Part shown: one piece after another, positions 5,465 to 33,039 of the stretch
How positions within the stretch are numbered: position 1 is the stretch's first letter
Layout: every line of letters starts with the position of its first letter
Source: a virus
IMG/VR virus record: IMGVR_UViG_3300007609_000035
Coordinates: 1-46,807 of that record
Direction: 5' to 3' (one strand)
DNA: 46,807 nucleotides
Position numbers and translations under genes: made by a program
Notes under the pieces: generated by a model
Seen by the model: the letters and a program-made list of their open reading frames with translations, nothing else
Database searches by the model: none
Told to the model about the DNA's origin: nothing

Positions 5465-5796
5465 AAACAAAAAAACTAAAAGTGTACGAGATTTCAGAGC
5501 AAGTATCTGCACTAGAAAAGACTTTAGGAACTTACAATGTTGGAGCTATAAACAACATAACTTATGGAGAGCTTGTAGAAATGCTTGGCGATCCTACCTT
5601 CCCCAGAATGAGTGATGATGAGAAAGTGCAAAAAGAATGGGTACTTGAATACAAGGGAGATGTATTTACAATATACGATTGGAAAACTTATAGTGAGCGA
5701 CACACAATGGAAGAGCTAACTAATTGGAATGTTGGGGGCAAAACATCTGCATTTGATTTTATAGATTATATAGAAAAAAAACAACGTAAATTATGA
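5461..5796 (+). CDS. conserved phage protein of unknown function, 111 aa
   Basis: The central part reads INNITYGELVEMLGDPTFP, then KEWVLEYKGDVFTIYDWKTY, then NWNVGGK. I recognise this order (Y-x-E-L-x-x-x-x-G-x-P, a strand-turn W-x-L-x-x-x-G-x-x-x-T-I-Y-D, and W-x-x-G-G) from hypothetical proteins in many phages. No function is known to me. Coupled by 4-base overlaps to both neighbours. Confidence 0.7.
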   Translation: MKTKKLKVYEISEQVSALEKTLGTYNVGAINNITYGELVEMLGDPTFPRMSDDEKVQKEWVLEYKGDVFTIYDWKTYSERHTMEELTNWNVGGKTSAFDFIDYIEKKQRKL

Positions 5797-6140
5797 ACAA
5801 TCACTTAAACTATTTAAAGGTTGTGCTTCTGTCGGAGCTCCTTCTGGAAGCTAACGAAGACCTTAAGGATAGCCAACAATATAAGCTGGGTTTAAAGCAA
5901 CAAGTATCTAGAACAAACATGATGCTTGATAGAATTGTAAGAAGCGAATACGATAAGGTTTATGGCGTAGATCCACAGATGGCTACTAATGTACTAAACA
6001 AAATAGACTCTCTCTTAAACTCAATTAGAGATGCCTCTATTCAAGACCTAATTATAATTGAGGGCATAGTAAAAAGATACAATGAAGACAAAGAAAAATT
6101 CAGAGAGTCTGAAGTCGTTTGGTTTGATAAAGTTAATTAG
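5793..6140 (+). CDS. hypothetical helical protein, 115 aa
   Basis: Almost entirely helical in prediction by eye, with Leu-rich and charged heptads (LLSELLLEANEDLKDSQQYKLGLKQQ) suggesting a coiled coil. No Cys and no membrane segment. The ATG overlaps the previous stop by 4 bases. Function unknown. Confidence 0.65.
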   Translation: MNNHLNYLKVVLLSELLLEANEDLKDSQQYKLGLKQQVSRTNMMLDRIVRSEYDKVYGVDPQMATNVLNKIDSLLNSIRDASIQDLIIIEGIVKRYNEDKEKFRESEVVWFDKVN

Positions 6141-6142
6141 AT

Positions 6143-6295
6143 ATGAAGAAGTTAAAAACAAATATATACACTGGATTAATTCCACTAAATGGTGCCATAA
6201 GAGTTGAGGTATTGACTCAAAAAGAATACAATGAAAAATATGAACACAATGTCTGGTGGAACAAAGTCAGAGATTATTTAAAGAATAAAATATAA
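6143..6295 (+). CDS. hypothetical protein, 50 aa
   Basis: A 51-codon frame starting 2 bases after the previous stop. The product (MKKLKTNIYTGLIPLNGAI...) has a basic start, a possible beta hairpin and a C-terminal aromatic helix (NVWWNKVRDYLKNK). Support is operon spacing and composition. Not recognised. Confidence 0.55.
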   Translation: MKKLKTNIYTGLIPLNGAIRVEVLTQKEYNEKYEHNVWWNKVRDYLKNKI

Positions 6296-6311
6296 CAAAA
6301 ATGTTATAATT

Positions 6312-6476
6312 ATGAAGCAACCTTACAAAATAACAATAGAGCAATACGGATATAAATATTCAGTAGAAGTAGATCACTCAGATATAAGTTTTACAGATTA
6401 TGTAGAGCTTTTAAGACAAATAAGTTTAGCTGCGGGGTGGGGCACGGATGCAGTAGAAGAATTTTTTAATGAGTAA
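6312..6476 (+). CDS. hypothetical acidic protein, 54 aa
   Basis: A 55-codon frame with an ATG after an A/T leader and a stop 11 bases before the next gene. The product starts with a beta hairpin (YKITIEQYGYKYSVEV), then a helix (FTDYVELLRQISLAAGW) and an acidic end (AVEEFFNE). It resembles other mini-proteins of phage early regions. Function unknown. Confidence 0.55.
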   Translation: MKQPYKITIEQYGYKYSVEVDHSDISFTDYVELLRQISLAAGWGTDAVEEFFNE

Positions 6477-6487
6477 ATTAAAACACT

Positions 6488-6823
6488 ATGAAAACAATAG
6501 CACTATGGGTTAGCGTGGTAGCAACAATCTACCATGCAGTCCCGGGACAAACAGACGATACCCCTAACATAACGGCTACGGGTTTCACTATCAACATGAA
6601 AGACCCTAGGAGCCATAATATTATTGCGGTATCCAGAGACCTTGAGGAAATAGGATTTACCATGAACTCAAAAGTATGTGTTACAAACGCAGGACCAATG
6701 AATGGGGTTTGGATAATAAGAGACAGAATGAATAAGAGATGGACAAAAAGGATTGATTTTCTTGTAGACACAAGTATTGTGGCTGGAAAATGGGATAAAG
6801 CAAAAATTAGATTACTTAAATAA
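6488..6823 (+). CDS. secreted 3D/RlpA-like double-psi beta-barrel protein, 111 aa
   Basis: The first 17 residues form a signal-like segment (MKTIALWVSVVATIYHA). The rest matches small double-psi beta-barrel (3D, RlpA/MltA-like) domains: TGFTIN (31-36), HNIIAVSRDL, V-x-x-A-G-P, G-V-W-I-I-R-D (Asp 79), then MNKRWTKRIDFLV (Asp 90, Asp 94). The Asp residues are those expected near the active site of lytic transglycosylase-type relatives. I infer a periplasmic role on peptidoglycan, in entry or lysis. It is the only recognisable cell-wall-related gene in the window. The catalytic claim is inference. Confidence 0.72.
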   Translation: MKTIALWVSVVATIYHAVPGQTDDTPNITATGFTINMKDPRSHNIIAVSRDLEEIGFTMNSKVCVTNAGPMNGVWIIRDRMNKRWTKRIDFLVDTSIVAGKWDKAKIRLLK

Positions 6824-6825
6824 AT

Positions 6826-6841
6826 GTTAAAATTCTTTAAC
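6826..6841. repeat. perfect palindrome GTTAAA-ATTC-TTTAAC
   Basis: Arms of six bases with a four-base centre lie 2 bases after the previous stop and overlap the -33 box of the following promoter. That position is suited to an operator. The short A/T stem is weak as a terminator. Confidence 0.5.
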
Positions 6842-6866
6842 ATTCAACCCTACTTTTATATATTTA
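6836..6866 (+). promoter_or_regulatory. promoter for the recombination/replication block
   Basis: TTTA (6836-6839), 19 bases, then TATATTTA (6859-6866), 4 bases before the ATG at 6871. The spacing equals the Bacteroidetes consensus (TTTG, about 19 bases, TAnnTTTG) with the last base of each box changed to A. A start about 5 bases after the -7 box would give an almost leaderless mRNA. Confidence 0.5.
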
Positions 6867-6870
6867 TGCA

Positions 6871-7269
6871 ATGAATAGACAAGATAAAATTGAAAAGATA
6901 TACAATTTATACAAAGATGATCACAAGGTTTATCAATTTGACAAAAACCAATCTGCCATATTCGACACTCTTTTAAAGATAGAGAGAACTATCACGGCAA
7001 AAAAAGAAGTCTATGAAGTATACTACACAGACTGCGAAGCATATATGCTAGTTGATGATGAGTTTTTAGACTTTATACTTATCAATGGATTAAAGGCTTC
7101 TGGAAAGAAAGTTTTGTTAGATAAAAAATACAATCAATTAGAGTCATTAGAGAGGTATCTAGAAAAATCTAATGCAAAGGAAAAAGACTTTTATAAAAAG
7201 AGAATAGAAGAAAAAATATCAGAAATAGAAATAGTAAAGCAAAAATTAACAGAGTATAATATAAATTAA
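6871..7269 (+). CDS. hypothetical coiled-coil protein, 132 aa
   Basis: First gene after the 6836-6866 promoter. The N-terminal half is a mixed domain (KVYQFDKNQSAIFDTLLKIER, ...YYTDCEAYMLVDDEF). From about residue 85 the protein is a long charged helix rich in Lys and Glu, a likely coiled coil. Its place ahead of the annealing protein suggests a role in recombination or replication, but nothing in the sequence proves this. Not recognised. Confidence 0.65.
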   Translation: MNRQDKIEKIYNLYKDDHKVYQFDKNQSAIFDTLLKIERTITAKKEVYEVYYTDCEAYMLVDDEFLDFILINGLKASGKKVLLDKKYNQLESLERYLEKSNAKEKDFYKKRIEEKISEIEIVKQKLTEYNIN

Positions 7270-7280
7270 AATCAAAAATC

Positions 7281-7733
7281 ATGAGTACAAACAGAGACAA
7301 AATCAAGGCGCTTTATTTAAAGTATGAACTAACCCCAGAAGACGTATTTAAACACCAGCACTTCACTATTATAACTCGTGCAGGTATTGATAAAATACAA
7401 GGCGTTGAGAAGATTAACATAACCTACGAGGTAATTAAATGCGAGGAAAACTTTGCAGTAGTGAAAGCTAAGTCAAAAAAAGATTCCGCTACAATAGAAA
7501 CATTTGGATCAGCACTAGTTTCTAGAGTTGATAACGAAAGAATATGGTCTAAGTCAAGCACTCAAGAAATAAAAGAAGATGTAAGAAGTGTTAGAGTTGG
7601 AAATTGCAACACATGGTATGTAATGGAGATGGCTGAAAAGAGAGCTATGTCCAGAGCAGTATTGAAGCTAACTGGATTCTATGAGTTAGGTGTATTTGGA
7701 GAAGATGAGTCAGATGATTTTAAAAGAAAATAG
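7281..7733 (+). CDS. ERF-like single-strand annealing protein candidate, 150 aa
   Basis: The segment at 112-130 (WYVMEMAEKRAMSRAVLKL) followed by TGFYELGVFGEDESDDF resembles the conserved core of ERF-type and related phage annealing proteins (A-E-K/T-R-A-x-x-R-A-x-L/K-L), and the N-terminal part is a small beta-rich domain. The family pairs complementary single strands during phage recombination. Context agrees: an exonuclease and an SSB-like gene lie just downstream. The protein is short for the family, so other ssDNA-binding roles are possible. Confidence 0.62.
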   Translation: MSTNRDKIKALYLKYELTPEDVFKHQHFTIITRAGIDKIQGVEKINITYEVIKCEENFAVVKAKSKKDSATIETFGSALVSRVDNERIWSKSSTQEIKEDVRSVRVGNCNTWYVMEMAEKRAMSRAVLKLTGFYELGVFGEDESDDFKRK

Positions 7734-24451: not shown

Positions 24452-25183
24452 TTAAGGGAAGCTCTTGCTAACCTCAGTGTTTACTGCGAATATCTCAACT
24501 GGAGATGATCCGCTATTTACAAGCCTTATGCTTGCATAGTACCCCTTTAATCCATAGCTTTCTGCTACACTATTCTTTGCTACAAAAATAAAGTCTCCGT
24601 TTGATGGTGATGAAAGGGATGATGATAATGTTATTGTTGTGTTTGTTTTTGAAACTATATTTCCTATCTTGGTGTATGCGCCTCCAGATGAAGAATACAA
24701 TACGTCTCCGATAGAAACGTTTCCTGGAACAGAAGAGAATGTGTAAACATTGCTAGAAGAACTAACTAAGTTTCCAACTCCTTGAACCGACAACAACTCT
24801 GTGTTGACTTCATCAGAAGCGTTTCTTCTTATGTAAGAATACTTGAAGCCTTCTTTGTTTTCAAAATCAGCCTTGTTTACATGCCCAGATTCTATGTCCG
24901 TAGCTACTGTTACGTCCCACTCTTTGGAATCCCCCTCTATTTCTATTGTCTTGAATATTTTAACTTCAGAAGGAGCATCATTTGCAACAAACTCTAGCTC
25001 AGTATTGTACGATTGACCGTAAAAAGTGTTTCTATTTCCTTCAGATTTGTTGTGAAGATATAGCTGTCCGTCTTTAAATGTATAAAACTCGTTATTCATA
25101 TTAACCATCATATCTGGTATATACGAATAAAAAGATGTCCATCCTTTTACTTTTTCATCGTAAGTTAAAGTGTATTCTGCCAT
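24452..25183 (-). CDS. conserved tail/virion protein, 243 aa
   Basis: The N-terminal half (YTLTYDEKVKGWTSFYSYIPDMM..., FYTFKDGQLYLHN, NRNTFYG, KIFKTIEIEGD..WDVTVATD) is a pattern I recognise from virion proteins of crAss-like and marine Bacteroidetes podoviruses. The C-terminal half is Ser/Gly-rich beta structure (SSSSNVYTFSSVPGNVSIGD). Probably a structural tail or surface protein; its exact place in the particle is unknown to me. It starts one base after the Thr-rich gene's stop. Confidence 0.75.
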   Translation of the reverse strand: MAEYTLTYDEKVKGWTSFYSYIPDMMVNMNNEFYTFKDGQLYLHNKSEGNRNTFYGQSYNTELEFVANDAPSEVKIFKTIEIEGDSKEWDVTVATDIESGHVNKADFENKEGFKYSYIRRNASDEVNTELLSVQGVGNLVSSSSNVYTFSSVPGNVSIGDVLYSSSGGAYTKIGNIVSKTNTTITLSSSLSSPSNGDFIFVAKNSVAESYGLKGYYASIRLVNSGSSPVEIFAVNTEVSKSFP

Positions 25184-25184
25184 G

Positions 25185-25778
25185 CTAAGCCTCTGTTACT
25201 GTTAGATTAAATGATCCGAAAGAAGAATCACACTCTATTCCGTAAATATACATTTTGTAATCTCCAGCAGTTAAGCTTACATTTAAGTCTGAGTCTGAAT
25301 CCGTAGGAGTTCCAGTGCTTGCTGAAACTTGTCCTTGACTATAAGATAAAGCTTGATCTATTCTTTCCACTCTAGAGAAGCACGAAACAGAAGATGGTCC
25401 AGTAGTAAAGTTGGCAGTCAATGTAATATCAAAGTTACCTGTAGTTGGAACAGTGAAGTTTCTAGTGGCATTTATAGAATACGTTGTTCCTCCAGTTATT
25501 ATAGTTCCTCCGGTGTTACTTGAGCAATTAGCTGATAAATATTGATTCTCAAAGTTTTGCTGAATAGTGGTTGATGTGGTTGTAGCCTCAGTAGTTGATG
25601 TGGTTGTAGCTTCTGTGGTGGTAGTAGTTTGCTCTCCACCAATAGGACAATCTATTAAATCTTGATAAGGAGCTATATAGTCTGGATCACCAGGAGAGTT
25701 TACTTTAGTCTCACTAGTGGCCTCTCCATTAACGTATTTCCTTAGAGTTAAGACTACTTTTGTGCCTGTATTAGCCAT
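25185..25778 (-). CDS. Thr-rich virion surface protein, 197 aa
   Basis: Residues 1-48 are a small domain (MANTGTKVVLTLRKYVNGEA...DLIDCPIG). Residues about 50-72 are a Thr-rich linker built of TEATTTST units. The remaining ~120 residues form a beta-rich domain with several Cys (SANCSSN, SCFSR, IECDSS) resembling a secreted or adhesin-like module. It probably sits on the particle surface. The Thr linker is the same kind as in the 1383-residue tail protein, and the modification cassette lies between the two. Product not recognised by name. Confidence 0.7.
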   Translation of the reverse strand: MANTGTKVVLTLRKYVNGEATSETKVNSPGDPDYIAPYQDLIDCPIGGEQTTTTTEATTTSTTEATTTSTTIQQNFENQYLSANCSSNTGGTIITGGTTYSINATRNFTVPTTGNFDITLTANFTTGPSSVSCFSRVERIDQALSYSQGQVSASTGTPTDSDSDLNVSLTAGDYKMYIYGIECDSSFGSFNLTVTEA

Positions 25779-25793
25779 AATATATTATTTATG

Positions 25794-25801
25794 CAAAGAT
25801 A
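25794..25801 (-). promoter_or_regulatory. late -7 element TATCTTTG
   Basis: On the minus strand TATCTTTG, a perfect TAnnTTTG, lies 15 bases before the ATG of the Thr-rich surface protein, in the 36-base gap after the second glycosyltransferase gene. No matching -33 box. Confidence 0.5.
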
Positions 25802-25814
25802 GTTAATTTAATAT

Positions 25815-26789
25815 TTACCTCATAGTAGAGTCTCTATTGAAGAAGAACTCATACAGCAGAGGCACAGGGCTTTCATGTCTTTTGTACCATAAATCTTCAA
25901 CGTCTTTTCTTTCTAATTGGGGTTCGTATGTAAGAGAATCTCCAACCATGTGATGCATTTTGCATGTTTTTATGACTCCAAAACTATCTTTAACACCAAC
26001 ATCTCCAGTAAAATGATAGAAATTTACTCTATTGCCTCCTTCGTTGTGAAGTGTAAGCTTGCCATCCACAACCTTTATTACTTTCTTTGGTTGTTTGTGC
26101 CAGCCCCATGTATTCATCCACTCTAGCTGCGGCAGCACAAATACATCTACATTATACATGTCTATTAAGAAATTCATATTGAATTGCTCTAGGTGCGATA
26201 TAGGATTGGTTTTTGCGTCAAAGCCGCTAGTTAATATTTCTATGCTTTTGTCAAGCAAAAACTTATGCTTCTTTCTTGATAACCCAAACAATCCAGCATT
26301 ATAAGTAATGGTTGTGTGGCCTTTCTTTAAGTTGTACGCCTTATCGCCTATGAAAGGTATTAAGTTGTTTACAATCCTTGCATGCTCCTGATCCCATTCT
26401 TCTGGATTACAGTAAGACTTATGAATTATATCAACCTCTTCTCTTGCTCCAACTAAGTATCCTTGTTCTAATTTTTCAAATAAATGGTCCATGTTAGATA
26501 GAAATATACAGTCTGCATCTAGTAAAATCTCATATTCATCCATATACCTAGACATCCCTATCCACTTAAATAAGTATTTACCATAGAAATGATGCTGGCT
26601 ATAGTGTTCAATATTAACATCTACAACCTTAACTTTCTTAGATAGCTTTTTTTTGTTGGTCTGACTAAGTCTACCATCGCAATAAACCTTTATTGGAACT
26701 TTGTTTTCGTAATACTCCCAGCTATTGTAAAGAGCTATAAAGTCTAAAAAATATTTATCATCTACAAATACTGAGTAACTTCTTTTCAT
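25815..26789 (-). CDS. glycosyltransferase, GT-A fold with DxD, 324 aa
   Basis: Follows the layout of GT8-like sugar transferases: a beta/alpha N-terminal half, then LLDADCIFLSNMDHLF with the metal-binding Asp 91 / Asp 93, an N-A-G-L-F-G segment near residue 175, and FYHFTGD near residue 265. It would use a nucleotide sugar and Mn/Mg ion to glycosylate an acceptor. It has no signal peptide, so it acts in the cytoplasm. Its ATG overlaps the radical SAM stop by 4 bases. The acceptor is unknown; I infer the Thr-rich virion proteins. Confidence 0.82.
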   Translation of the reverse strand: MKRSYSVFVDDKYFLDFIALYNSWEYYENKVPIKVYCDGRLSQTNKKKLSKKVKVVDVNIEHYSQHHFYGKYLFKWIGMSRYMDEYEILLDADCIFLSNMDHLFEKLEQGYLVGAREEVDIIHKSYCNPEEWDQEHARIVNNLIPFIGDKAYNLKKGHTTITYNAGLFGLSRKKHKFLLDKSIEILTSGFDAKTNPISHLEQFNMNFLIDMYNVDVFVLPQLEWMNTWGWHKQPKKVIKVVDGKLTLHNEGGNRVNFYHFTGDVGVKDSFGVIKTCKMHHMVGDSLTYEPQLERKDVEDLWYKRHESPVPLLYEFFFNRDSTMR

Positions 26790-27835
26790 TCTTCGAATTT
26801 AGCTGATGCGCAATTTCTACATATAGTATTGTAAGACTTCTCTATCATTTCAATGTGCTTATCATTACCCCAGAAATCTCTTATTTCCTGCCTTTCTAGG
26901 TTTCCAACAACGATTTCCATGTCGTAATCATTACAGCACAGGAAAGCGTCTCCTAGAGCATTTATATGCAGCCAACCAACAGGTCTTCCTCCGACCTCTA
27001 TTCCGTTGCCACATCCTATTACTCTTTTATCTCTGTTCTTTCGCATTAGGTTTTTCTCTATAGCATGTTTGTTGCTCATAACATGGTCTAGCAACCCAGC
27101 TCTATCTATTAAGTGAGGCATACCATAAACAGTCATTTTAGGGAACAGCTCTTTTGCTTTTATAACTTGCTGTGCATTTTCTCCGGTTTCTGGATCCATA
27201 TCTAAGTCTCTAGGAAACTCTTTTCCTATAGTAACCCAACCACCATTTTGATGCAATGAATTTAAGTTGACTCCATTTATTCCAATGCTAAATGATTTAT
27301 TCTCCACCATCTCAGGAAGCTTTTCAATAGCATAGTGTACGTTTCTAATCATATTGTCGAACATACCTTCCTTGAAGTTTGTTCTTTTTGCCCAGAGCTC
27401 TTTGCTTGTAAATATTGGTATATTTAAGTTTATTCCAGATATTACATCGCTAAACTCAGCAAGCAAGTCAGTTTTGTTAGGAGTCAATGTAGTTCCATTG
27501 GAAAGAATCATTGTTCTCATTTTAAACTCCCTTAGTATCTCAAAAAACTCCCTTAAGTAAGGATATAAAAGTAACTCGTTGTAATGAGACGTATAGAAAC
27601 CGCCAAAGTTTTTATCTACCAACCCATCTTCTCTATCTCTTTCTGCAACTATGTTTTCTATTATCTTTCTAAGCAGTGGTATTGGCATAGGCTTTTTTGC
27701 GTGTGCTGGATTACCTTGATAAGCCACAGGGCAAAACCAACACCCAGCATTACAGTGTCCATTTGGATCTAACTGCATCTGCGCTATTTTATGCTTATTA
27801 AATGAGTCTTTAATTATGTCTTTTAATGGAATCAT
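26786..27835 (-). CDS. radical SAM enzyme with SPASM-type C-terminus, 349 aa
   Basis: The N-terminus carries CNAGCWFC (Cys 28, 32, 35), the CxxxCxxC site that holds the SAM-cleaving 4Fe-4S cluster. Next come SHYNELLLYPYL and MILSNGTTL, typical of the radical SAM barrel. The C-terminal quarter has Cys in GCGNG, FLCCNDYD and ICRNC, which fit auxiliary clusters of a SPASM or twitch domain. Such enzymes often modify peptides, proteins or sugars. It is coupled by 4-base overlaps to a glycosyltransferase on each side, so it probably works with them. Confidence 0.9.
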   Translation of the reverse strand: MIPLKDIIKDSFNKHKIAQMQLDPNGHCNAGCWFCPVAYQGNPAHAKKPMPIPLLRKIIENIVAERDREDGLVDKNFGGFYTSHYNELLLYPYLREFFEILREFKMRTMILSNGTTLTPNKTDLLAEFSDVISGINLNIPIFTSKELWAKRTNFKEGMFDNMIRNVHYAIEKLPEMVENKSFSIGINGVNLNSLHQNGGWVTIGKEFPRDLDMDPETGENAQQVIKAKELFPKMTVYGMPHLIDRAGLLDHVMSNKHAIEKNLMRKNRDKRVIGCGNGIEVGGRPVGWLHINALGDAFLCCNDYDMEIVVGNLERQEIRDFWGNDKHIEMIEKSYNTICRNCASAKFEE

Positions 27836-28743
27836 GATAATGCTTGTTGAATTAATTTATAGTACTTGTAAGAACATGTGTTATCGTCAACCTGTAGATT
27901 TAAGTCAGGCATTTCGTTTATATACTTTCCCTTGAAAAACAATTCTGGATTCTTTTCGGTAACACCAGCATTGTGGTATATAGCATGCTTATGCCATAAA
28001 TCTTTACTACTTACAGACCAAGAAAAGTCTAGTTCTGGAATTACTTTAGTTTCTTTGTTTCTTTTCCATATATTCCAAAGTACAGCCCACATATCTGCGC
28101 ACCATATTTGCAATGGATTGTAATCTTCTTCGCTTTTAGAGATCATTTCTTTATTTAGCTCAGTTATTTCTTTAAATAACCTAGTGGAGTCATTCTCTAC
28201 ATCGTACCAAAAATACTTGTCAATTCCCTTTAGTATATACTGAGCACCACCAGAGTTTTTTTCATTTGCCTCTAAAGTCTCTTTATCTATGCCAACTATA
28301 TTACACATAGCGTCTAAAACCTCATCTCCTTTAGATTTTATGTAATCGTGGCCAATATAAGACACTGTGTCTGATAGATAGCAAATACTGTCTGTGAATA
28401 CGTTTTCAGGTAGCTTCAATGGCTTAGTGAAGGCAATATCACAGTCATGATACATTATAATCTCATCACTTAAGCTTGGGTAAGCAGCAAAATGTTTTCT
28501 GAGTATGTGTGGTCTTATGCTTGATATATACCCCTTATCGTGTCTTTCGTCTTCATAGAAAGAGAACAAAACTCCAGGATACTTCTGCATCAATTTGTCA
28601 AAGTATGGATCTATACCCCCATGAATAGCACAAACAATATGTACATTTTCTAGGTTTATACCTACATTCATAAAGCTGTGAAGCATTACATCAATCTGCC
28701 ATGCAAAGTATTGCGTGGAAGGTTGAGCGCATATATATTTCAT
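27832..28743 (-). CDS. glycosyltransferase-like protein with DxD, 303 aa
   Basis: A GT-A-like alpha/beta protein: MKYICAQPSTQYFAWQIDV, then IIMYHDCDIAF with Asp 100 / Asp 102 as the likely metal and nucleotide-sugar site, then a GGAQYIL segment near residue 165. The C-terminal part contains YHNAGVTEKN. I call it a sugar transferase from the DxD context and fold pattern; the sugar and acceptor are not evident. It is not close to the second glycosyltransferase, so this is not a tandem duplication. Start abuts a 43-residue gene (TAAATG). Confidence 0.75.
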   Translation of the reverse strand: MKYICAQPSTQYFAWQIDVMLHSFMNVGINLENVHIVCAIHGGIDPYFDKLMQKYPGVLFSFYEDERHDKGYISSIRPHILRKHFAAYPSLSDEIIMYHDCDIAFTKPLKLPENVFTDSICYLSDTVSYIGHDYIKSKGDEVLDAMCNIVGIDKETLEANEKNSGGAQYILKGIDKYFWYDVENDSTRLFKEITELNKEMISKSEEDYNPLQIWCADMWAVLWNIWKRNKETKVIPELDFSWSVSSKDLWHKHAIYHNAGVTEKNPELFFKGKYINEMPDLNLQVDDNTCSYKYYKLIQQALS

Positions 28744-28875
28744 TTAATTTAATTTTCCTAACCGAATAAATTCTTTAGCCTGTGAAATTACATTTTGTCT
28801 TTCTTCATCAGACATAGACGTAAATTCCTGAGCTGTTATCAAAGATAATTCTTCTTTTGTATATATCTTATTCAT
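28744..28875 (-). CDS. small hypothetical protein ahead of the modification cassette, 43 aa
   Basis: A 44-codon frame whose TAA directly touches the ATG of the first glycosyltransferase and whose start lies 12 bases after the 1383-residue gene. The product is acidic and helical (YTKEELSLITAQEFTSMSDEERQNVISQAKEF) with no Cys. It could be a small adaptor, a regulator or, less likely, a peptide substrate of the radical SAM enzyme. Confidence 0.6.
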   Translation of the reverse strand: MNKIYTKEELSLITAQEFTSMSDEERQNVISQAKEFIRLGKLN

Positions 28876-28887
28876 TTTTATATAATA

Positions 28888-31800
28888 TTATGGAAATCCT
28901 CCTCCTCCAGTACATTCTGTTGTGCTATACATGTATCCGAAAGATGTTATTCTAGTGCTGAAAGCTACTCCGTTTCCATCCATATCTATACCATACCACT
29001 GATCGCCACCGTTAAATGGAGTTTGAGCAGTAGAGTCTGTGTAAACCCTAGCTCCATCTTCTGGAGTAGGGGTTGCAAACCATACATTATCAAAGGCAAA
29101 TAAATTACAAGCATCGTCTGATGTTGATTGCCCAGATGTCCTAGCTCCAGCGTAAGTTACTATTGTAGTGGTTGTTGTAGTAGGTGCAACCGTTGTCGGA
29201 GCCGCTGTAGTCGTTGTTACAGGAGCCTGAGTAGTCGTTGTAGCTGGCGGCGTTGTAGTACTAGTAGTAGTAGTGGTTGGAGCAGCTGTTGTACTAGTAG
29301 TTGTAGGGGCCGCTGTTGTTGGAGCCACAGTTGTTGTTGTCGGAGCCTGAGTAGTTATAGGCTGAGTGGTTGTTGTAGCCGGTGGCTGAGTTGTAGGAGC
29401 TGACGTTGTTGTTGTTGTAGTTGGGGCAGGCGCCTTTGTTGTTGTAGTAACTATAGTTGTGCTTGTTGTAGTAGGTGGCTGCGTTGTTGGAGGTGGACAA
29501 GTTCCAGTAATATTATACTGACCGTCTGCTGTTGTCTGATCTCCAAGAGTCCAGCATTGTCCAGATCCATCGTTCAATGTAACCAAGTCATTTATTTGGT
29601 ATCCTTGCTGTAACCATACATAAGCGTATACTAATCCATCAAACCTTTCTGCTATCCAAGATTTATTTGGAACTGAAGTAGTTGTTGTCGCAACAGTAGT
29701 AGTTGTTGTTGTTGGAGGGGGTAAACAAGCGGAACAATCTGGGAATGCTTCACTCCAATCATTATTGTTAGAAGGAGCCCCACTAGCAATAACTTCGTAG
29801 CAAGTGCTATCTCCAGCAAACTTAAATGACTCACCGTTACTAAATGTAGTAACACTTCTCATCGTAACTGTTGTTCCTCCACCGCATGGTTGTGCGTAGT
29901 AGTAGTTATATCCTAAAGTTGTAGTCGTTGTTACTGGAGGTGGACATCCTGTTAATCCTGTATCAGAAACAAGACCTATATTTGTTCCTGATGTTGTTGT
30001 TCCAGTAACAATGTATATAGTAGGCCCACTTCCTTCTACCCTATCATTTACAGATAAAGATATTTCTTGAACCTCTTGTTGTGTTCTAAATCCAACGGCT
30101 CCATCACTACACCTTTCTAATGAGTAATAAGAAGGAGCGATTGTTGTAGGTGGTGGTGTTGTAGGTATTGTCGTGCTAGTTGTAGTCGCTACAGTTGTTG
30201 TAGTTGTAGTCGGACCTCCACTAGTTGTAGTAGTAGTAGTTGAAGCAGGTTCAGTTGTACTTGTAGTTGTTGTAGTGCTACTAGTTGTTGTTGTAGGCTC
30301 TGTTGTACTAGTAGTAGTTGTGCTGCTAGTAGTAGTTGTTGCTGCTGTAGTTGTGGTTGTTGTTGGATCACTTTCTTGTTGGCAAGTATAAGTGTCTTCT
30401 AACCATTCAGTTAATCCTCCTTCACAGCTATATTCATCCTCTTTCCATTCTACAAATCCATCTTTTAAAGAAACTACATAATGATCATTAATGGGATCAT
30501 AACCTCCAATAACAGATGTTTCGCTTGATGTATTTAAGTTGTCTATAAACCAATCATGCATTCCATAATCAGAAACTTCAAATATGCCGTTCTCAGTTAA
30601 TCTGCATATAGCTCCTCTTCTTTCATCAGCAAAAAACATATCATATCCCCATGACTGAAAAGATGCTGGAGAAAAGCTTATTCCATACTCTCCTTTGTAA
30701 GGAACTTCTTGACCTAATACATTTAAGTTTTGAGATACATTTCCAGTTCCATCTGCATTATAAAGAACAGACTTGTTAAACAACAACTTGTGTATTTTGT
30801 TTTCTTGGAAAACTATAACATCATTGTTTCTAGAATGAATTAGCTGTATAGATCCATACTGAGCATCCATATCCTTATAGTTAACTAAAGATAAGTTAAA
30901 CTCATTTAATCCATTAAAGTTAGTCGTAGAGTCGTAAACGTTACTGTATGTTAAAGATGATATTCTTTTGTTAGACCTGAAGCCATCAACCTCATCGTTT
31001 ACTCTAACGGCAATGTTTAATTTCTGCCCAGATATAGAGTCATTTATTCTATTGGATTCAGATCCATCCCCAAAACAATAAGCATTATACGCATTTAGAA
31101 CTGTTTGCGCATTTTGAGACGATGTTTGATCTTGAATCTCTCCTTTATGAAATCCATCAATTATATCGTAAGTTCCAGGAACTTCATAATAAACAGTTTC
31201 TATGGTCTTTTCTGGAAGGCTTTCAAATATTACAGAGAATGGTTCTGCTAGAGTTGTATCTAATATCGTAGTATTACCCTTTAATTTTATATAAGCACCA
31301 GCTTCTTGCGTTCCAGTTCCAATAAAATCAGCCTCTTTAGTTTGAACGCCAATTACTTCGTACTTATAAAGTGTTTCAGTAGGTCCTGCTCCGTTATTTT
31401 TTAAAATTAATGTATCACCATCAGCCACTTTATTTAGCTCCGTTTGAGCTGCTTTAATGTAGTAATAGTCAACATTATCTTCTTTGTCTCTATAGAAAGG
31501 ACCTTTAGTTCTTATTGTGTAGTAATCTAAGGCAGTTTCTCTAATTGCAAACTTGTATCTATCAGCCCAAAATGGTGGGTTATGAGATATATTGACTCTA
31601 ATCTTATTAGATAAATCATTTGTGTAGTGAGCAAAAGTAGCAGAATTAGATATTCCAGTTAGTACAGGAGATTTTCTTCCATACTTATCAAAGTAAACCA
31701 TACCTACATCGTAGGTTCTATTACTTTTTAGCGTTGGCTCCGCAATATATCTACCACAAGAACCGTTATCAACCTTAGTATAGTAAGATGTATTGTCTGT

Positions 31801-33039
31801 AACGTTGCCTAAGTTGTACCCACAAATAGTTATTGTCTCGTCTGGATCTAAATTAACCTGAACATTTTCTCCTTCACAGTTAGTGTAGAAAAATAAAGAT
31901 TGAGATCCTACTCTAGTTATTGTGTAAGAGTTTGATGTTTGACAAGACTCAGTTAAAGGAGTTGATAGCTTGTCTATTAAAAGATCAAAGTTTATAAGAT
32001 CTTCATTAGAATCTAATAAATCATAATTATCTTCGTAGTTTGCGTATACAAGCCTATTTCCAATGATCTCCTGGGACTTCGCCTTGTGAGGTACATTATC
32101 ATATATCCTGTTAAATTGAGTCTCTGAGAGGACCGTAAATAGCTTATCGTTAGAGAAATTAAACGAGCTCTCTGAGTTATCGGGAAGTGTTGCTTTGTTC
32201 CTATCTAAAGTATATGCTAGATATAGATTTTGAGAAGAAGCTTCTTTTGCGTATATCTCAACTTTTTCAACGTTTTTATCCCCTACATTAAAAGATACGC
32301 TTACAGATGTGTACTGGTTTAGCATGGCTGGATTATCAGCTGCCTCAATATCTATATCCCCTGGTTTAAATGCCCAGTCTGAAAATGGAGATAAAGCACT
32401 AAACTCATTATCAGCATACTTATATCTGTAAGAAAAAGAAAAAAAGCTCTCTCTAAGATTGCTTTCTTCTGGATTGCTTCCTTCCACCCCTTGTATTGAA
32501 GGCTCTTTTCTAGGCGGAGCTTTTATAACTGATATGTCGGAATCATTAAACCCATTTACATTATAAGACTTACCTTTAGAAACCTCAATTCTTCTTGGTG
32601 GATTTAAGTTGTCTGTCCAGTATATAAACACTTTATCATTGTCGTTATCAACAAAGATGTTTATTCCAGTAATTAAATGAGATTTACTGAAGTTTAAAAC
32701 ATTACTTCCATCTGGCCTAGTGTCAGTTAAAACAAAATCAACATCACCATTATCCTTGGAGTATTCCATTAGATAAGATCCAGTATCTGATTTAACAAAC
32801 CAGTATATTTTTCTGTTCTTATCGTCAGCAATAGTTCCAATACAAGAAGGATTAGCTCCAAAAGATACAGAAGACAAAGCTTCATTTGATAATGCATTTT
32901 CAATAGCACCAACACCTGATCCATCAGAGTTAGCAACTTTAACGTTTAACGCATCTCTATATTCTCCTTTAGGCACAAGTCTTTCATCGAAATCCTTGTT
33001 CATCTTTCCAGATGTAAATAAGTTTTTAACTTTCCCCAT
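28888..33039 (-). CDS. tail hub/stabilisation-like protein with Thr-rich modular C-terminus, 1383 aa
   Basis: Residues 1-880 begin MGKVKNLFTSGKMNKDFDERL..GEYRDALN, a pattern I know from tail-tube/stabilisation proteins of crAss-like and related podoviruses, and are beta-rich. From about 890 the protein is modular: a Thr-rich linker (890-956), then three short domains of 60-70 residues, each opening with aromatic residues and ending in Cys and C-P/L-P-P before another Thr tract (for example GCPPPVTTTTT). A long Thr/Pro/Ala stalk (about 1180-1293) precedes a terminal ~90-residue domain. The tail part probably extends from the particle as a flexible fibre. Confidence 0.8.
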   Translation of the reverse strand: MGKVKNLFTSGKMNKDFDERLVPKGEYRDALNVKVANSDGSGVGAIENALSNEALSSVSFGANPSCIGTIADDKNRKIYWFVKSDTGSYLMEYSKDNGDVDFVLTDTRPDGSNVLNFSKSHLITGINIFVDNDNDKVFIYWTDNLNPPRRIEVSKGKSYNVNGFNDSDISVIKAPPRKEPSIQGVEGSNPEESNLRESFFSFSYRYKYADNEFSALSPFSDWAFKPGDIDIEAADNPAMLNQYTSVSVSFNVGDKNVEKVEIYAKEASSQNLYLAYTLDRNKATLPDNSESSFNFSNDKLFTVLSETQFNRIYDNVPHKAKSQEIIGNRLVYANYEDNYDLLDSNEDLINFDLLIDKLSTPLTESCQTSNSYTITRVGSQSLFFYTNCEGENVQVNLDPDETITICGYNLGNVTDNTSYYTKVDNGSCGRYIAEPTLKSNRTYDVGMVYFDKYGRKSPVLTGISNSATFAHYTNDLSNKIRVNISHNPPFWADRYKFAIRETALDYYTIRTKGPFYRDKEDNVDYYYIKAAQTELNKVADGDTLILKNNGAGPTETLYKYEVIGVQTKEADFIGTGTQEAGAYIKLKGNTTILDTTLAEPFSVIFESLPEKTIETVYYEVPGTYDIIDGFHKGEIQDQTSSQNAQTVLNAYNAYCFGDGSESNRINDSISGQKLNIAVRVNDEVDGFRSNKRISSLTYSNVYDSTTNFNGLNEFNLSLVNYKDMDAQYGSIQLIHSRNNDVIVFQENKIHKLLFNKSVLYNADGTGNVSQNLNVLGQEVPYKGEYGISFSPASFQSWGYDMFFADERRGAICRLTENGIFEVSDYGMHDWFIDNLNTSSETSVIGGYDPINDHYVVSLKDGFVEWKEDEYSCEGGLTEWLEDTYTCQQESDPTTTTTTAATTTTSSTTTTSTTEPTTTTSSTTTTTSTTEPASTTTTTTSGGPTTTTTTVATTTSTTIPTTPPPTTIAPSYYSLERCSDGAVGFRTQQEVQEISLSVNDRVEGSGPTIYIVTGTTTSGTNIGLVSDTGLTGCPPPVTTTTTLGYNYYYAQPCGGGTTVTMRSVTTFSNGESFKFAGDSTCYEVIASGAPSNNNDWSEAFPDCSACLPPPTTTTTTVATTTTSVPNKSWIAERFDGLVYAYVWLQQGYQINDLVTLNDGSGQCWTLGDQTTADGQYNITGTCPPPTTQPPTTTSTTIVTTTTKAPAPTTTTTTSAPTTQPPATTTTQPITTQAPTTTTVAPTTAAPTTTSTTAAPTTTTTSTTTPPATTTTQAPVTTTTAAPTTVAPTTTTTTIVTYAGARTSGQSTSDDACNLFAFDNVWFATPTPEDGARVYTDSTAQTPFNGGDQWYGIDMDGNGVAFSTRITSFGYMYSTTECTGGGGFP

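Follow-up and report, generated by a model that had tools for sequence, protein, structure and literature searches.

The stretch of DNA analysed here (the window) is a 46.8-kb IMG/VR record in which a late operon on the minus strand encodes, in order, a pair of virion proteins, the tail protein (1383 aa), a 43-aa ORF, a glycosyltransferase (GTa), a radical SAM enzyme (rSAM), a second glycosyltransferase (GTb), a 197-aa Thr-rich protein and a protein with a crAss muzzle C-terminal domain (Table 1). The cassette genes lie where the initial annotation had placed them, all on the minus strand, and the 4-base overlaps that it reported are present between GTa and rSAM and between rSAM and GTb but not at the 43-aa ORF, which abuts GTa (overlap 0) and lies 12 bases downstream of the tail gene. 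The last protein of the series (24452-25183, 243 aa) matches the C-terminal domain of the crAss-phage muzzle (Pfam, 4.9e-17), so that this small phage has a tail part in common with crAss-like phages.

Table 1. Features of the cassette region, with positions in the window and the basis of each assignment
Feature	Position	Strand	Basis
Tail (virion structural) protein, 1383 aa, proposed acceptor	28888..33039	(-)	PHROG 14478, 9.7e-224
Thr linker 1 of tail protein, aa 888-966	30142..30378	(-)	segmentation
Thr linker of tail protein between two small domains, aa 1105-1124	29668..29727	(-)	segmentation
116-aa Thr/Pro linker of tail protein, aa 1183-1298, before terminal 85-aa domain	29146..29493	(-)	segmentation
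43-aa ORF, orphan	28744..28875	(-)	no relatives in 28,053 small ORFs from all the loci fetched
GTa, 303 aa, HDCD motif, proposed Thr-tract O-glycosyltransferase	27832..28743	(-)	PHROG 4417
rSAM, radical SAM/SPASM(twitch)-type enzyme, 349 aa, CNAGCWFC, proposed sugar-tailoring enzyme	26786..27835	(-)	Pfam
GTb, 324 aa, LDAD motif, proposed glycan-extending enzyme	25815..26789	(-)	Pfam Mannosyl_trans3
197-aa Thr-linker protein of virion operon, possible second acceptor	25185..25778	(-)	N-terminal type and Thr
Thr linker of 197-aa protein, aa 51-71	25566..25628	(-)	read from translation

As had been claimed, of the 52 non-overlapping ORFs in the window that are 60 aa or longer, only those of the tail protein and the 197-aa product are Thr-rich; the MCP of the window has no Thr tail. 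The tract of the tail protein is far beyond chance, reaching 68% Thr over 40 aa when none of 1000 composition shuffles exceeded 45%; that of the 197-aa protein is modest at this scale (40% Thr, reached by 27 of 1000 shuffles). Thr codons in the tracts form a normal mix of ACA, ACT, ACG and ACC, the same as outside them, which rules out an origin as a DNA microsatellite. The tail protein combines a conserved body (aa 1-887) with a C-terminal extension of about 500 residues (aa 888-1383), in which Thr linkers alternate with small domains, the 85-aa domain standing at the end. Homologs of the body in Cellulophaga phage phi18:3, Maribacter phage Panino and Flavobacterium elemo phages make a Flavobacteriia-type host likely. 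Their match ends near residue 880, ahead of the Thr region, and the phi18:3 homologs are virion proteins confirmed by MS. For two of the small domains in the extension, the fetched loci contain relatives; the nine matches all fall within other Thr-linker proteins, some of them from unrelated phages. Similarly, the N-terminal type of the 197-aa protein (..DYIAP..DL..CP..) recurs together with Thr runs in locus L002 and in Chryseobacterium phage MA9V-3, two genes of which begin in this manner and continue with Thr runs.

GTa matches the PHROG 4417 profile over its full length (4.2e-70, residues 1-301 of 303), and its AF2 model (pLDDT 96.8) has a confident GT-A fold, with Foldseek matches of low similarity to WbbM, UGGT, LARGE1, LgtC, COLGALT1 and the Skp1 galactosyltransferase. 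An invariant DxD (HDxD) and a conserved C-terminal HNAG that contains the His of the metal site are the motifs of the family. GTa is predicted to be a soluble metal-dependent GT-A enzyme, the donor sugar of which is not readable from the fold. Homologs of PHROG 4417 were found in 74 records of named phages, mycobacteriophages gave no match to GTa by tblastn, and in several contigs GTa and rSAM are fused into one protein of 659-665 aa.

The idea that GTs and Thr-rich tail genes go together is borne out for GTa in related phages. A Thr run was defined as 7 Thr in 10 aa, and 103 GTa genes in viral contigs were grouped at 85% identity into 43 clusters. The gene immediately preceding GTa contains such a run in 31 of the 43, compared with 12 of 375 at the other positions within six genes (Fisher, 2e-27); clustering at 70% gives 18/26 directly upstream versus 7/234 elsewhere (p=2e-16). 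This criterion was adopted after the data had been seen, the controls with tail relatives being zero under both it and the first threshold (40% Thr over 40 aa), which yielded 12/22 clusters and understated the association since the Thr linkers of many partners are short. A GTa that follows a gene without Thr runs was found in a few loci (L103, L108, L130, L131, L171 and L176). Among 400 sampled Firmicutes genomes, the only one with GTa, a Bacilli genome in which it presumably belongs to a prophage, again has it directly after a Thr-tailed protein. A search in the reverse direction, with the T6-AP-T6 DNA pattern and no GT criterion, returned 44 stretches in 43 records, 12 of which carry GTa (control tail-relative records, 0/39). 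GTa or a GT2-family enzyme above cut-off is present in 19 of these records (again 0/39 in the controls) and neither in the other 24, many of which are fragments.

Isolated phages present the same picture. In each of 13 isolates sampled from the named phages with PHROG 4417 homologs, GTa lies among the structural (head-tail) genes, mostly directly after a Thr-tailed one, which is the MCP or the MTP gene in phages of Gram-positive bacteria. These include Lactobacillus iLp84, Enterococcus phiFL1A and 4995_1, Lactococcus CHPC836 and CHPC971, Staphylococcus SA2 and PT1-4, Arcanobacterium TPWB06, Lacticaseibacillus R3.3 and Chryseobacterium MA9V-3. By the strict criterion a Thr run is present in 11 of the 13; in the exceptions, 9183 and Planchet, two phages of one genus, the tail protein bears a weaker Thr tail, ATTTDPVTTTSTTRQ. 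MCP and MTP both have poly-Thr C-termini in iLp84, phiFL1A, CHPC836 and R3.3, and CHPC971 has two Thr-tailed structural genes, both ending in ..RHD. Capsid and tail protein also have like endings in iLp84 (..TTTTTTTSK), CHPC836 (..HA) and R3.3 (..SHA), as expected if one enzyme serves both. No Thr run occurs in the GTa-less phages with related capsid or tail proteins, namely 4268, DT1, Javan47, 315.6, ATCC8014 and three others. Lactococcus phage 4268 has the gene order of CHPC836, an MCP 92% identical to its counterpart and a closely similar MTP, and is missing GTa together with both Thr tails: the CHPC836 endings ..APTTTTTTQATTTTTSHA and ..STTTTTTTHA are ..KTTTSTAV and ..GVGV in 4268.

The 677 genes of 71 contigs that encode a relative of the tail body include none with a Thr run. 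On a tree of the tail protein from 39 contigs with enough downstream sequence, Thr linkers are present in all 8 with GTa and in none of the 31 without it; the GTa-positive rows were partly recruited via GTa, the Thr trait not being a selection criterion. Both GTa and the Thr linkers have undergone three changes on this tree, which coincide in every case, with a sign test on these three changes alone (p=0.25) falling short of significance. One family member that was not placed on the tree, L163, combines GTa with a weak Thr/Pro tract only. L261 and L302, also of this family, repeat the arrangement of the window, Thr linkers included. A further relative, L222, has a Thr tract, its locus ending just past the tail gene.

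The radical SAM enzyme scores above the Pfam cut-offs for Radical_SAM (1.3e-10) and SPASM (1.4e-8). Alignment of 19 sequences revealed invariant cysteines at C28/C32/C35 (CxxxCxxC), C275, C300, C301, C339 and C342 and a subfamily signature, FLCCNDYDME, common to all. The C-terminal cysteines would fit a single auxiliary cluster like that of BtrN. BtrN is also the closest PDB sequence (8.8e-9), and DesII, BtrN and BlsE are the best Foldseek matches, with the peptide-modifying SuiB, anSME and EpeE not far behind, while the best match to a named radical SAM maturase in NCBIfam scores 26 bits against a cut-off of 250. rSAM is encoded by at least 210 viral contigs, nucleotide and protein searches yielded no close relatives in named phages, and 84,980 bacterial and archaeal species genomes gave remote core matches only (24-31%), on which a cellular origin was rejected. 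By these comparisons, rSAM is a phage-restricted family. Grouped into 41 clusters, it has a GT within four genes in 28, and Thr linkers in 14, all of which have a GT nearby. The other 27 are without Thr tracts, though usually beside another GT, and the link between rSAM and Thr is therefore indirect. Absence of Thr tracts was common around rSAM, and of the cassette proposed in the initial annotation the conserved core is the Thr tract with the first GT, rSAM and the second GT being optional. GTb is above the cut-off of Mannosyl_trans3 (Mnn1-like, 3.6e-7), and some of the loci have a homolog of it adjoining rSAM (L010, L013, L017, L293, L295, L300 and L302). The 43-aa ORF probably lies outside the conserved system; a role as RiPP precursor was rejected because no fetched locus has a conserved precursor.

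In other loci, GTa or rSAM is accompanied by different enzymes. In L005 (2501-6948), a GTa-rSAM adjoins a TIGR04414 protein O-heptosyltransferase (4.7e-82, 275.9 bits versus a cut-off of 200), the kinase and adenylyltransferase parts of HldE and a 724-aa GT/methyltransferase fusion. Homologs of this operon in L007, L009 and L011 extend what is apparently, from homology, a phage route of protein O-heptosylation; the GTs of the window gave no match to TIGR04414 above cut-off. In L024 (4400-7319) and L025, rSAM lies between a 2OG-Fe(II) oxygenase (prolyl-hydroxylase-like) and a PF11397-type GlcNAc transferase, and L278 and L280 have these three enzymes in one operon. Other partners of GTa or rSAM are sialyltransferase-like and DXD-type GTs. 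The presence of protein-glycosylation enzymes beside GTa favours protein, and not LPS, as its target. Upstream of the GTa-rSAM in L012, a subtilisin-like protease with a C-terminal Thr linker (5705-7597) lies between two Thr-rich genes. Not far downstream of a structural gene that has no Thr tract, Microcystis phage Mel-JY01 encodes a 1226-aa protein annotated as methyltransferase FkbM that contains a TibC-like O-heptosyltransferase domain (L223:4750-8430), and directly before this GT/TibC fusion lies a 43-aa ORF (L223:4601-4732) unrelated to that of the window.

From the co-occurrence of GTa with Thr tracts and from the matched isolates, we infer that virion proteins are O-glycosylated on Thr, and GTa is very probably the enzyme that does so. 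The original suggestion of a phage decorating Thr-rich proteins of its own virion hence finds computational support in gene position, tail relatives, the search from the Thr side and the isolate pairs. GTa would be made with the late proteins, immediately after the tail protein, and would initiate O-linked glycosylation of its Thr runs while still in the cytoplasm, either ahead of virion assembly or in the course of it; the 197-aa protein is a probable further substrate. rSAM might then alter the sugar by oxidation, epimerisation or deoxygenation, as do its nearest characterised relatives, and GTb might extend the glycan chain. Glycosylated Thr/Pro linkers of the mucin type are extended and protease-resistant. 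The Thr runs, once glycosylated, could be stiff mucin-like linkers that hold the small domains away from the tail, and the phage might benefit from extended receptor-binding arms or from protection against proteases, host binding or antibodies. In this scheme, the gene order, the domain families, the predicted folds and the close association of GTa with Thr tracts in unrelated phages are shown directly, whereas the linkage through the Thr oxygen, the identity of the sugar, the sequence in which the enzymes act and the advantage to the phage are inferred. That rSAM acts on a sugar rather than on a peptide is close to an even bet. It is a tentative thought, somewhat short of even chances, that phages of several bacterial phyla have in common a portable Thr tag with its dedicated GT, which can be placed on capsid, tail-tube or fibre proteins, and that the phage-only rSAM of the more elaborate versions edits a protein-linked sugar. 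Such editing would be a form of glycoprotein processing without described precedent.

Several other explanations must be weighed. The GTs could modify LPS or capsule late in infection, blocking superinfection or re-adsorption, the Thr tracts being unrelated linkers. Host-surface modification is the usual published reading of GTs in tail-fibre regions, one applied to the tail-fibre islands of pelagimyophages, which have GTs, rfaE and radical SAM cassettes and in which the GTs are taken to modify the host O-antigen (PMC7029224), and HldE-type heptose genes serve LPS too. This is nevertheless improbable for GTa, which tracks Thr tracts gene by gene, be it on capsid, tail-tube or fibre proteins, and phage 4268 is without tails exactly where it is without GTa. 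Moreover, ten cassette-region proteins scanned include no gtrA-type flippase or bactoprenol GT, and the heptosyltransferase relative falls into the family of O-heptosyltransferases that act on proteins rather than into an LPS one. Glycosylation of phage DNA against restriction, a known role of some phage GTs, is very improbable since the cassette genes lie in the late virion operon, a partial scan of early genes found no base-hydroxylating partner and the Thr association would be left unexplained. There is equally little chance that Thr-rich low-complexity linkers are simply common beside GTs in such phages. Although no GT was detected alongside some Thr tracts, their peak is at position -1 only (p below 1e-15), and both the tail-relative loci and the matched isolate pairs argue against coincidence.

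A different alternative concerns rSAM, which might modify the polypeptide itself, for instance on Thr side chains, giving a doubly modified, RiPP-like tail protein. SPASM enzymes are often peptide modifiers, the fold matches to SuiB, anSME and EpeE and the fusion of rSAM with GTa would fit this possibility, and the oxygenase and GlcNAc transferase that flank rSAM in L024 and L025 are both of protein-modifying types. On balance it is the less likely reading, as the best matches in both sequence and fold are sugar or cyclitol enzymes, the fetched loci have no conserved precursor, and many rSAM relatives adjoin GTs without any Thr protein.

O-glycosylation of Thr tracts by GTa, the preferred reading, has partial parallels elsewhere. 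Mycobacteriophages are described as carrying out phage-encoded O-glycosylation of their virions, at the C-termini of capsid and tail-tube proteins (PMC12619734, citing Freeman 2023). On that account, the likeness lies in phage-encoded GTs and in the MCP and MTP C-termini, the very proteins that are Thr-tailed in the Gram-positive GTa phages, whereas the window has a Thr-linker tail protein as acceptor, a radical SAM partner and a glycan predicted from genomic association. The same Thr tag was not found in mycobacteriophage Che8, the MCP and MTP of which have C-termini that are not poly-Thr. In Aah/TibC O-heptosylation (TIGR04414), a dedicated protein O-glycosyltransferase likewise adjoins its own surface-protein substrate, but the acceptor is an autotransporter rather than a Thr tract, and TibC matches GT9 when GTa is GT-A. 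rSAM resembles BtrN, DesII and BlsE in sequence (BtrN), fold, CxxxCxxC and SPASM/twitch-like C-terminal cysteines, but is only 12-16% identical to them and phage-restricted, with a signature of its own. L024, L025, L278 and L280 recall the hydroxyproline glycosylation of Skp1 by a prolyl hydroxylase and a PF11397 GlcNAc transferase, an analogy only, as neither enzyme is present in the window. Finally, secreted bacterial cellulases and mucins have O-glycosylated Thr/Pro linkers separating small folded domains; the linkers of the window differ in being on a phage tail and accompanied by a phage-encoded enzyme.

The statement of the initial annotation that it knew of no described system of this form stands for the pairing of a Thr-rich tail or capsid protein of a phage with a GT, which was not found described in the open-access literature searched, but not for virion glycosylation as such, given the mycobacteriophages. 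Four elements look new: the Thr-tag acceptor, the GT family to which GTa belongs, the accompanying radical SAM module and the wide occurrence of the association. To our knowledge, only a handful of mycobacteriophages have been shown to glycosylate their virions. GTa relatives adjoin Thr-tagged shell or tail proteins in phages from three or more bacterial phyla, which suggests that glycosylated virions are much commoner than recognised. The combination of Thr tag and GT would be a signature predicting virion glycosylation in large aquatic phages as well as in those that infect Firmicutes, Actinobacteria and Bacteroidetes. If this is true, PHROG 4417, annotated as of unknown function, would be re-annotated and many GTs labelled as modifying host LPS would be read differently, with a bearing on antibody recognition and stability of therapy phages; a new radical SAM family beside glycosyltransferases adds to this. 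The prediction is directly testable in a cultivable dairy phage that has a near-identical untagged sister (CHPC836 and 4268). In Sextaecvirus-type phages (L318:3117-3930, L320:3164-3926 and L324:2508-3210), the product of the major tail gene has a short C-terminal Thr tail, and an ORF that overlaps this gene in a different frame carries on with a Thr/Pro tract of much greater length. Programmed frameshifting may be at work here, in which case a minority of subunits would be long-tailed.
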